A DNA stretch of 64,000 nt from Myceligenerans salitolerans (GTDB lineage Bacteria > Actinomycetota > Actinomycetes > Actinomycetales > Cellulomonadaceae). Within the stretch, counting starts at the first letter, position 1, and every line of letters begins with the position of its first letter. Where the stretch lies: the NCBI RefSeq assembly GCF_017349295.1, contig NZ_JAFMPK010000020.1, positions 62,001 to 126,000 of the forward strand. Reading direction: 5' to 3'. Made by a program: the position numbers and the translations under genes. Below, piece after piece: positions 55,245 through 58,656 of this stretch. Under the pieces are notes generated by a model that saw only the letters and a program-made list of their open reading frames with translations, was not told the DNA's origin and searched no databases.

Positions 55245-58214
55245 TCAGGCCGGAACGATGTTGACCAGCTTGGGTGCGCGGACGATCACCTTCCGGACGC
55301 CGGCACCGTCCAGGAAGCGGACCACGTTCGGCTCCGCCAGTGCCGCCGCCTGCAGGTCCTCCTCGGAGATGTCCGGCGCGACCTCCATCTTGGCGCGCAC
55401 CTTGCCCTTGACCTGGACCACGCAGGTCACGGTCTCGGCCACCAGGTACGCCTCGTCCGCCTCCGGGAAGGGCTCGTGGGCCAGGGACTCGGTGTGCCCC
55501 AGCTTCTCCCACAGCTCCTCGGCGATGTGCGGCGCCACGGGCGCCGTCATCAGGACCAGCGGCTCCACGGCCGCGCGCGGCACGCCGTCCAGGCCGGTCA
55601 GGTGGTTGTTCAGCGTGATCAGCTTGGCGATCGCCGTGTTGGGGCGCATGCCCTCCATCTCGGTGCGCACGTCCGCGATGGTGCGGTGCAGCACGCGCAG
55701 GGTGGCGGCGTCGGGGGCGTCGTCGGTCACGGTGACCTCGCCGGTCTCCTCGGATACGACGTTGCGCCACAGCCGCTGCAGGAACCGCTGCGAGCCGACG
55801 ACGTCGCGGGTGTTCCACGGACGCGACTGGTCCAGCGGCCCCATCGACATCTCGTACAGGCGGAACGTGTCGGCGCCGTAGGCCTCGTACATGTCGTCCG
55901 GCGAGACGACGTTCTTCAGCGACTTGCCGATCTTCCCGTACTCGCGGTTGACGGGCTGCCCCTGCCAGAAGTAGGTGGTCTGCCCGTCCGGCGCCGTCTC
56001 CTCGGTGACCTCCTCGGCGGGCACGTACGCGCCGCGCGAGTCGGTGTACGCGTACGCCTGGATGTAGCCCTGGTTGAACAGCCTGCCGAACGGCTCCGAC
56101 GACGACACGTAGCCCAGGTCGAACAGGACCTTGTGCCAGAACCGCGCGTACAGCAGGTGCAGCACGGCGTGCTCCACGCCGCCGACGTACAGGTCGACGC
56201 CGCCCGCCGGGCCGGACGTCGCGTTGTGCCGCGGCCCCATCCAGTACTTCTCCAGCGCCGGGTCGACGGCGTGCTCCGTGTCGGTCGGGTCCAGGTAGCG
56301 CAGGTAGTACCAGCAGGAACCCGCCCAGTTGGGCATGGTGTTCGTGTCGCGGCGGTACCGCCGCGGGCCGTCCCCCAGGTCCAGGGTCACGTTCACCCAG
56401 TCCTCGTTGCGGCCCAGCGGCGCCTCCGGTTCGGAGTGGACGTCGTCGGGCTCGAAGGTGCGCGGCGCGTAGTCGGGCACGTCCGGCAGGTCGACCGGCA
56501 GCATGCTGTCCGGGATCGCGACCGGCCGGTCGTCCTCGTCCCACACGACCGGGAACGGCTCGCCCCAGTACCGCTGCCGCGAGAACAGCCAGTCGTTCAG
56601 ACGGTACGTGGTGGTGCCCTGCCCGACGCCGTTCTCGCTCAGCCAGGCGATGATCCTGGCCTTCGCCTCGTCGACGCCCAGCCCGTCCAGGCTCAGCGCG
56701 TCGTTGGACGAGTTGATCGCGACGCCCTCACCGGCGTAGGCCCCCTCGAAGCCGTCCGGCAGACCGCCGTCGGGAGCGACGGTGTGGACCACCGGCAGGT
56801 CGTACGCGCGCGCGAAGTCGTAGTCGCGCTCGTCACCGCCGGGGACGGCCATGATGGCGCCCGTGCCGTACCCCATCAGGACGTAGTCCGCCGTGAAGAC
56901 CGGGACGTGCGTGCCGGTCACCGGGTTGACGGCCAGGTGGCCGGTGAAGACACCGGTCTTCTTGCCCGCGTCGGCCTGGCGCTCGACCGCGCTCTTGCCC
57001 GACGCCTCCCTGCGGTACGCGGCCACGGCCGCGGCAGGGCTCTCGTGCCCGCCGGTCCAGACGCTCTTCGTGCCGTCGGGCCAGGCGGCCGGCACCTCGT
57101 CCAGCAGCGGGTGCTCGGGCGCGACGACCATGAAGGTCGCGCCGAACAGCGTGTCCGGTCGGGTGGTGAAGACCTCGATCGCCTCGCCCGCGCCGGCGGC
57201 GTCGTTGTCGGACGTGCCGACGACGTCGAAGCGCACGTGCGCGCCGTGCGAGCGGCCGATCCAGTTGCGCTGCATCGCCTTGACCTTGTCCGGCCAGTCG
57301 ATCAGCTCCAGGTCGTCCGTCAGGCGGTCCGCGTAGGCGGTGATGCGCATCTTCCACTGGCGCAGGTTCTTGGTGAACACCGGGAAGTTGCCACGCTCGG
57401 ACCGGCCCTCGCTCGTGACCTCCTCGTTCGCCAGAACCGTCCCCAGGCCCGGGCACCAGTTCACCGGTGAGGAGTCGACGTAGGCCAGGCGCTGTGCGTC
57501 GAGGACGTCGCGCCGTTCGCCCTCGCTCAGCGCGGCCCAGACCGCACCGCCGGTGTTGTCGCCGTCGTGGCCGGGTACGGGGCGCGTACCCGCGGCCAGT
57601 TCGTCGCGCAGCTCGGAGATCCGGCGGGCGCGGCCTCGTCGTCGGTCGGGATCGGTGCCGGCCGGCTCGGCGTCGGCGTCGTACCAGGAGTCGAAGATCT
57701 GCAGGAAGATCCACTGCGTCCAGCGCACGTACTCGGGATCGATCGTGGCGAACGAGCGGCGCTGGTCGTGCGCCAGGCCGGCCCGGCGCAGCTGGCGCCG
57801 GTAGGTGACCATGTTCCGTTCCGTCACCCCGCGGGGGTGTTCGCCCGTGGCCACCGCGTACTGCTCGGCGGGCAGACCGAAGGCGTCGAAGCCCATCGTG
57901 TGCAGCACGTTGTCGCCGCACATGCGCCGGAACCGGCCCACCACGTCGGTGGCGATGAAGCCCAGCGGATGCCCCACGTGCAGGCCCGCGCCCGAGGGGT
58001 ACGGGAACATGTCCATGATGAAGTACGGACTGCCCGAGGCGTTCGCGCCGTCGGGCCCCGTCAGGGCGCCCGACGGGTTCGCGGCGTGGAACGTGCCGCG
58101 CTCCTCCCACCGGTCCTGCCAGCGCAGCTCGATCTCCTGCGCGAGTGCCGGGGTGTAGCGGTAGCGGGGACCTTCGGGCGTACTCGTGGTGCGTTCAGCG
58201 GCGGGGGTCGTCAC
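55245..58214 (-). CDS. leuS: Leucyl-tRNA synthetase
   Basis: LeuRS charges tRNA-Leu. The product has [15 protein letters not shown] (HIGH motif), a tRNA-editing domain ([12 protein letters not shown] and [15 protein letters not shown]), the signature KIGKS (GKIGKSLKN, in place of KMSKS) and the C-terminal anticodon/LSD region. Start: the GTG at 58214 (989 residues) has TAGAAT seven bases upstream, a leaderless start, and gives the usual length. An in-frame ATG at 58358 (1037 residues, GGAG nine bases upstream) would add a Gly/Pro-rich head and lies directly after the candidate attenuator. Both could be used. Confidence 0.95.
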
Positions 58215-58400
58215 CCGCGGGATTCTACCGACCGAGCCGGGCTCGGCCCCGGGCCGGCCGGTGATCGGGCTCGTGACCGGTCCTGGGCCGGAGGGCGCCC
58301 GGCCGGTGACCGGGCTCGCCGGGCTCTCGGCGGCACCGGGGGACATCGTGTCGGTCATGGTCGCGGCTCCATCTGCGAGATCGGGTTCCGGGCACGAAGA

Positions 58401-58474
58401 AGCCCCCGCGCTCCGAGGAGCGCACGGGGGCTGCCGCACCGGGTGTGCCCGATCACGGGGCGGAACCGGTGCGG
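58401..58474 (-). promoter_or_regulatory. Candidate leuS attenuator structure
   Basis: Two hairpins follow the leader peptide on the minus strand. The first has perfect 9-bp arms CCGCACCGG (58474-58466) and CCGGTGCGG (58442-58434), starting on the base after the leader stop. The second is terminator-like: AGCCCCCGTGCGCTC (58432-58418) pairs with GAGCGCGGGGGCT (58413-58401) with a two-base bulge, followed by TCTTCGT. A ribosome stalled at the leader's Leu codons would cover the first arm. Pairing and function are inferred, and the U-run is weak. The gap 58215-58400 holds only the alternative leuS N terminus and promoter. Confidence 0.5.
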
Positions 58475-58504
58475 CTACATAAGCAGCGAGCGGATGGACC
58501 TCAC
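58475..58504 (-). CDS. Candidate leuS leader peptide (Leu-Leu codons)
   Basis: GTG to TAG encodes VRSIRSLLM, with adjacent leucine codons CTG CTT at positions 7-8. The stop codon directly abuts the first attenuator hairpin. CATCCT lies six bases before the GTG, a weak -10, so initiation would be leaderless. It is short, so chance cannot be excluded. Confidence 0.45.
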
Positions 58505-58539
58505 CCGCCCAGGATGCCAGGCGGCCCCGGACGGCGGCA

Positions 58540-58629
58540 AGCGGTCGGTCCGATGTCGCGAGCGGTCGGTCCGACGTCGAGCGGTCGGTCCCTCAGGCGA
58601 CCGACCGCACCGACATCGGACCGACCGCT
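58540..58629. repeat. Direct and inverted AGCGGTCGGTCC repeats
   Basis: AGCGGTCGGTCCGATGTCG (58540-58558) is exactly inverted at 58611-58629. Direct copies begin at 58561 (one mismatch over 19 bases) and 58580 (12 bases). The whole could fold as a long hairpin and may terminate the upstream VKOR transcript. It is also a likely site of slippage or recombination. Confidence 0.7.
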
Positions 58630-58656
58630 CGACGACCTGCCGACCGCTCGGCAGAG

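Follow-up and report, generated by a model that had tools for sequence, protein, structure and literature searches.

A probable leucine-codon attenuator before leuS in Myceligenerans salitolerans and its counterparts across the Actinomycetes

The window analyzed here, a 64,000-nucleotide stretch of the genome of the soil actinobacterium Myceligenerans salitolerans, carries on its minus strand a leucine--tRNA ligase gene (leuS, TIGR00396) that can be read in two forms. The long form (55245-58358) starts with an ATG at 58358 that is preceded by a Shine-Dalgarno-like GGAG (58367-58370) and lies in frame, 48 codons upstream of the GTG at 58214 with which the short form (55245-58214) begins. The nearest named LeuS genes found were those of M. 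pegani (97%) and M. indicum (94%). Farther upstream on the same strand lies a VKOR-family gene (PF07884; 58657-59352). The stretch between this gene and the leuS leader holds, at 58532-58650, a cluster of GAGCGGTCGGTCCGACGTC-type repeats, both direct and inverted, with arms of the inverted repeats of up to 33 nt that are 88% complementary.

Read on the minus strand from 58504 to 58475, the sequence GTG-AGG-TCC-ATC-CGC-TCG-CTG-CTT-ATG-TAG forms a leader ORF (GTG at 58504-58502, TAG at 58477-58475) for the peptide MRSIRSLLM, whose two adjacent Leu codons, CTG (58486-58484) and CTT (58483-58481), are the candidate sensing codons (58481-58486). The base directly 3' of the TAG opens a 9-bp helix, helix A, which was delimited by leader parsing and covariation. 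Its 5' arm CCGCACCGG (58466-58474) and 3' arm CCGGTGCGG (58434-58442) are 23 bases apart, and a single base separates the 3' arm from a predicted intrinsic terminator hairpin, AGCCCCCGTGC..GCGCGGGGGCT (58401-58432), identified by parsing, conservation, and covariation. The hairpin is followed by the U-rich tail TCTTCGTG (58393-58400), which is interrupted by a C and weaker than the TTTTTCGTG of three sister species, and by a post-terminator block, GTGCCCGGAACCCGATC (58379-58395), whose complement, GATCGGGCAC (58454-58445), is part of the helix A loop. The initial annotation had described a nine-codon GTG-TAG frame with two adjacent Leu codons that ends where a 9-bp hairpin begins and is followed by a terminator-like hairpin and the longer leuS start; the frame proved exact, helix A does begin at the base after the TAG, and the limits given, 58401-58504, agree with the hairpin and leader found upstream of the ATG at 58358.

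Several comparisons indicate that this arrangement is better than chance within the window. The 140-nt leader folds with a z-score of -3.88 against dinucleotide shuffles, none of 200 being as stable. A mechanical scan for tandem Leu codons, a nearby stop, a 9-bp perfect inverted repeat at the stop, a close hairpin, and a T-rich tail returned the leuS leader as its sole match on both strands of the window; 40 equally long windows drawn from a first-order Markov model, scanned on one strand each, gave no match. CTT itself is rare, accounting for 8 of 403 Leu codons in the ten window ORFs taken as genes. Furthermore, a covariance model built without the host family ranked the leuS leader as the best match in the window (43.6 bits, E 7.5e-9), with the leuA leader as the runner-up at 21.9 bits. 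In the whole-genome model search, the leuS leader was the only place listed among the 150 scored of 17,243 candidates; since that search missed the ilvB leader, which scores 25.2 bits locally, the listing is no evidence of uniqueness. T-boxes, which likewise sense tRNA charging upstream of aminoacyl-tRNA synthetase genes (those of Firmicutes, and the translational ileS T-boxes of Actinobacteria), differ from the window element: no Rfam family, T-box included, was matched at its gathering score anywhere in the window, and a T-box or other Rfam element was ruled out on this ground.

All four Myceligenerans genomes examined, as well as that of Antribacter soli, carry the element before leuS1, the usual leuS of the host family (Cellulomonadaceae). 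The leader peptide is identical in the window genome (G000) and in G001 and G002, and reads MRSIRSLLIQPHRLRP in G003 and MSRIRSLLIQPR in A. soli (G043). TGGCATCCTG is identical across the four Myceligenerans species. Both arms of helix A differ between A. soli (CCGCGCTG/CAGCGCGG) and the window and are still paired. Retention of the tandem Leu codons and both stems in these five genomes is the outcome by which the initial annotation had proposed to judge its reading. Among the other leuS1 genes scanned in the host family, no such leader with a terminator was found.

To cover a wider range, 46 leaders were assembled, 39 from scans of 119 class genomes and seven from 80 named loci. As they were chosen for a short ORF containing LL, their LL content and start-codon choice are not independent evidence. 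As last Leu codon, 42 of the 46 have CTT and four have CTC, one of the four (G034) being misparsed; in all 46 leaders as parsed, this codon stands two codons before CCG. Alignment A1 comprises 36 of these leaders, with G028 and G034 excluded for their parsing and eight similar f34/f35 leaders left aside. Within A1, 93.1% of helix A cells are paired, and five of its ten pairs show double-sided changes; for the terminator, the values are 95.6% of cells and four of seven pairs. Partner-slid controls reach 44-50% pairing. Four of five covariation measures lie above all 500 shuffles; on the fifth, further pair types, 25 of the 500 attained the observed value. RNAalifold, unaided, gives the same two helices. 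The proposal of a peptide-type, Leu-codon attenuator before leuS is thus strongly supported by conservation and covariation, together with the leave-family-out model match.

Searches with model R1, which includes five members of the host family (model R3 includes none), gave matches in at least 83 of 148 class genomes (E <= 0.01) and at least 16 of 198 phylum genomes (E <= 1e-4), counts that are lower bounds given that 22-29 candidates were scored per genome under strict filters. The best listed LeuS place was entered for 143 of the 148 class genomes, and the element lies 45-236 nt upstream of leuS in 62 of these 143; by identity, 36 of the 62 precede the large LeuS type (G280 counted here) and 26 the short type. 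Matches elsewhere in the class numbered 32; the 18 inspected comprise 11 before cimA, five before ilvB, one before leuS (G194), and one leuS-type leader without a remaining gene on its contig (G219). Ten inspected host-family matches divide into seven ilvB, two cimA, and one leuS remnant (G067), and four outside the class into one before leuS (G387), two before ilvB, and L294, which could not be assigned. Altogether, 31 of 32 inspected matches at other places precede leuS, ilvB, or cimA or carry such a leader; HMMs confirm 15 of the target genes, the remainder were read by eye, and the cimA assignment of L279 and the ilvB assignment of L266 were made from the leader only. The same architecture is found before two divergent leuS types, ilvB, and cimA.

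The cimA leaders (L262, L269, L271-L280, L300, and L306) carry Ile codons, with peptides such as MHYGLLIIGRRAG-stop or ...PAIIIR-stop, and have a helix and a terminator. No relevant report of Ile-codon leaders upstream of cimA came up in a literature search, mainly of openly licensed papers. The last branched-chain codon of the cimA leaders ends 5 nt from the helix in 12 of 14 cases, the other two having a later Val codon. The same 5-nt spacing holds for the leuS leaders when the G15-C74 pair is counted, and spacing in the ilvB leaders is more variable. In the window genome, the ilvB leader (MQTNLVVLIPERAD-stop; L305) and the cimA leader ORF, which ends PAIIIR-stop, each have a terminator and, close to the stop, a helix, and score 25.2 and 19.5 bits with R1, respectively. 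In this way, leuS, ilvB, and cimA of one genome stand under leaders of similar layout, and leuA stands under its own.

Within the host family, a second, divergent leuS (leuS2) occurs in 36 of 150 genomes (E <= 1e-60; for example, G158, G063, and G005), where it coexists with the usual leuS. Its product is 46-50% identical to the N-terminal stretch of the window LeuS in the three rows listed. The leader precedes leuS2 in 31 of the 36 genomes (E <= 0.01); four of the remaining five (G064, G111, G125, and G142) match weakly in a local search, at 24-25 bits, and the fifth, G024, has no local leader match before leuS2. Before leuS1, the leader was found in five of the 150 genomes, the four Myceligenerans and A. 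soli, and leuS2 at E <= 1e-60 is absent from all five. A. gilvus (G005), placed in the genus of A. soli, has leuS2 with the leader and gave no leader match upstream of its leuS1. In G067 (L261), the leader stands intact before a leuS2 remnant of which the start and the C-terminal part are left, matching profile positions 637-841 only. Compared by eye, the elements of Myceligenerans and of Promicromonospora leuS2 are closely alike over the whole stretch that begins with the Leu codons and ends with the post-terminator block, and the block is similar in the five leuS1 cassettes and the Promicromonospora leuS2 cassettes. The cassette seems to have moved between leuS2 and leuS1. On a poorly resolved tree, the leuS1 placement takes one or two changes, with one change in 26% of bootstraps. 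The LeuS1 of G066 (L049) is aberrant in that tree, with a very long branch that possibly reflects a frameshift or an assembly problem. Both GTGCCCGGAACCCGATC and GATCGGGCAC are kept in Myceligenerans, A. soli, and the Promicromonospora leuS2 cassettes, and their complementarity makes an alternative pairing in the read-through RNA possible.

This distribution also bears on a simpler account of the locus, in which the hairpin is a mere terminator of the upstream VKOR-family gene, which it follows on the same strand, and the small frame is due to chance. The class-wide link to leuS already contradicts this account: the element precedes leuS in many other families and leuS2 in the host family. As helix A covaries as well, we consider it highly improbable.

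A promoter-like hexamer is also conserved among the leaders. In 41 of the 46, TANNNT precedes the start codon by 6-8 nt, compared with 0.6% of random positions; the four Myceligenerans have CATCCT instead, and one of the 46 has neither hexamer. In the window, CATCCT (58511-58516, minus strand) is the candidate -10 of a promoter, P1, standing 6 nt before the leader GTG with a TG one base upstream; its spacing is right, and the first T of TANNNT is missing. The placement of these hexamers across the leaders fits leaderless ORFs of the kind described for S. lividans LeuL2 (PMC8079986), and P1 would imply the same for the window leader. A second candidate -10, the TAGAAT of P2 (58222-58227, minus strand), lies 7 nt before the GTG at 58214, whose transcript would likewise be leaderless. 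Of 52 host-family leuS1 genes examined, 48 have the motif TANNNT-N5-8-RTG no more than 75 nt upstream of the LeuS anchor. A transcript that begins nowhere but at 58214, an outcome that the initial annotation had named as refuting its reading, may thus occur. Judged by these motifs, the attenuator looks like an added upstream module, P2 probably gives basal leuS expression, and P2 may bypass the element. Should P2 be basal, the attenuator would add a regulated, N-terminally longer LeuS product.

The non-consensus CATCCT, the early TAG, the interrupted U-tract, and the conserved P2 motif could also mean that the leader is a relic decaying in Myceligenerans, with leuS transcribed essentially from P2 at 58214 alone. 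Nevertheless, the tandem Leu codons, helix A, and the terminator are retained in all four species, in which TGGCATCCTG does not vary, and helix A has changed on both sides relative to A. soli. Nor is the early TAG peculiar to the window, as it also stands directly before CCG in G034, G203, G209, L135, and the Promicromonospora leuS2 leaders. A relic is therefore unlikely in our view. The commoner form of the peptide ends in xxPR-stop, an ending that the window leader lacks, as do G034, G203, G209, and L135; this ending is frequent and does not define the type. Where the window has TAG, G003 and A. soli read CAG and the Promicromonospora leuS2 leaders read TAG; given these opposing readings, the idea that the early stop is derived in the window was dropped.

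The initial annotation had considered a Leu-codon leader unusual for leuS. This does not hold for Actinobacteria, as attenuators of leuS were predicted in two Streptomyces and contrasted with the T-boxes of Firmicutes (PMC1262725, in the sections available), and leuL2 was mapped in S. lividans with a leaderless start (PMC8079986, likewise in the sections available). According to these sections, Streptomyces leuL2 resembles the window element in having a short Leu-codon ORF, hairpins, and a terminator before leuS, and its peptide is MRAVRLLLSEPR. This peptide or a one-residue variant occurs in ten class genomes (family f34, by its sequences presumably Streptomyces), seven of which are in A1. 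Homology of the whole element with these Streptomyces-type leaders is supported by the model that contains f34 leaders and no host-family member, the source of the 43.6-bit match (E 7.5e-9). As far as leuL2 is described there, the window leader differs in its peptide MRSIRSLLM and early TAG, in having two rather than three Leu codons, in a different, still-paired helix A, and in the promoter-like P2 between the element and the leuS core. The leuS attenuator of Actinobacteria is thus already known, and the window element is a variant with an early stop. What is new is the occurrence of one architecture before two divergent leuS types, ilvB, and cimA. The prediction for two Streptomyces is extended to a class-wide element with strong covariation, and the covariance model could seed an Rfam family.

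The element is, with good probability, a ribosome-mediated transcription attenuator of leuS. The ORF, the two covarying helices, the fixed spacing, the class-wide link to leuS, and the conserved -10-like element are observed; from them, we infer translation of the leader ORF, regulated termination, and the direction of the switch. Transcription from P1 would begin at the leader GTG or close to it, and the nine codons would then be translated. With ample Leu-tRNA the ribosome would get to the TAG, and with scarce Leu-tRNA it would stall at CTG-CTT. Helix A lies 6 nt past CTT, so the position of the ribosome would decide whether the helix folds, and the state of helix A would in turn set the chance of RNA polymerase stopping at the adjoining terminator. 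Starvation for charged tRNA-Leu is thereby predicted to cause more read-through into leuS. This reading is also favored by a related leader, that of M. tuberculosis ilvB1, in which changing the LVVI codons to Ala abolished induction (PMC13236596, in the passages available).

Several observations speak against a classical version of this mechanism. Helix A and the terminator share no base or alignment column, and no mutually exclusive folding was seen in A1 or by RNAalifold; this abutting, non-overlapping geometry is a concrete mechanistic puzzle. Ribosome-state folding was modeled for 44 of the 46 leaders, excluding G028 and G034, in which the helix or the terminator is misparsed. The terminator was predicted at above 0.9 in all modeled ribosome states for most of the 44, the exceptions being, for a ribosome at the stop codon, G203 (0.44) and G304 (0.32) and, for the ribosome-free state, L136 (0.33) and G212 (0.68); a terminator value of 0.14 for G000 and G001 is an artefact of the base pair chosen and does not describe the hairpin. 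A candidate antiterminator, formed by the 3' arm of helix A with the 5' arm and loop of the terminator, was rejected, being not above shuffles (family-mean z of +0.68, 44 leaders). Additionally, the window -10 lacks its first T, and the U-tract is interrupted. Codon changes in the S. coelicolor ilvB and leuA leaders gave non-classical behavior, as reported in the accessible portion of PMC1262725, and these mutants count against simple codon sensing. Hence, the element probably works like an attenuator, and strict membership in the classical trp/leu type is not claimed.

Two polarities can be envisaged for helix A. In the first, helix A counters termination: it would form when the ribosome stalls upstream and be masked by a ribosome at the stop. 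When the A site holds the next-to-last Leu codon, helix A is predicted at 0.93 or above in 43 of 44 leaders (the exception being G240). A ribosome at the stop hides the 5' arm of the helix, which follows from the way the mask was constructed; stop and arm adjoin without a gap in the window genome and overlap in most other leaders. When the A site holds the last Leu codon, however, predictions for helix A range from 0 to 1, and the lack of overlap between helix A and the terminator leaves unexplained how termination would be prevented. The same logic has been proposed for M. tuberculosis ilvB1 (PMC13236596, in the passages available). As described in these passages, ilvB1 shares with the window element branched-chain codons in a uORF, a ribosome at the stop, and a Rho-independent terminator. 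It differs in the amino acids sensed, the gene controlled, and a mutually exclusive antiterminator, a feature not visible in the leuS leaders. We give this polarity slightly less than an even chance of being correct.

Alternatively, helix A could protect termination in the manner of the trpL 1:2 hairpin. A ribosome on CTT would cover the start of helix A, the helix would fail to form, and its 3' arm would mispair with the terminator region, resulting in read-through. Because the last Leu codon precedes CCG by two codons in all parsed leaders, the footprint of a ribosome stalled there should extend over the first few nt of helix A. In nascent folds, the terminator 5' arm is free at 0.84, 0.69, and 0.64 for a ribosome on the next-to-last Leu codon, the last Leu codon, and the stop, respectively. 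The higher value in the state in which helix A folds, as compared with a ribosome on the last Leu codon, favors this polarity; that it also exceeds the value for the stop, where helix A cannot fold, is the reverse of what an antiterminator would give. Nonetheless, the difference is small, the mispairing in nascent RNA does not exceed shuffles, and the published ilvB1 model, as far as its available text goes, has the opposite logic (PMC13236596). A protective helix is accordingly a real possibility that we hold to be less than probable.

On a broader scale, leuS, ilvB, and cimA of Actinomycetes might share a portable attenuator design, consisting of a leaderless ORF whose last sensing codon lies about 5-6 nt before a helix that abuts, and does not overlap, the terminator. 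The genes under it would form a charged-tRNA regulon for the branched-chain amino acids, the helix would act through its position and stacking and not through competition for base pairs, and the cassette would be able to move between divergent synthetase genes, as it seems to have done with leuS2 and leuS1 in Myceligenerans and A. soli. We offer this unifying reading tentatively, as one that is rather unlikely to hold as a whole.

The initial annotation had also expected the leuS leader to pair with a leuA leader in the same window. A leuA leader, MHPAKSLLLRCRGEAP-stop, is present at 6044-5994 on the minus strand; however, it looks like the known LeuL1 / LEU element type, and its match to the leuS model is the weak one of 21.9 bits. 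In the sections available of PMC1262725 and PMC8079986, the LEU element before leuA is described as having a pseudoknot, a stem to the leuA Shine-Dalgarno sequence, and no typical terminator. It shares with the leuS element a leader peptide containing a run of Leu codons, whereas the leuS element has a terminator and shows weak similarity to it by model. The region of the window leuA leader, taken as 6044-5950 on the minus strand, combines the MHPAKSLLLRCRGEAP ORF with a long CCGCGGCGAGG/CCTCGCCGCGG stem.
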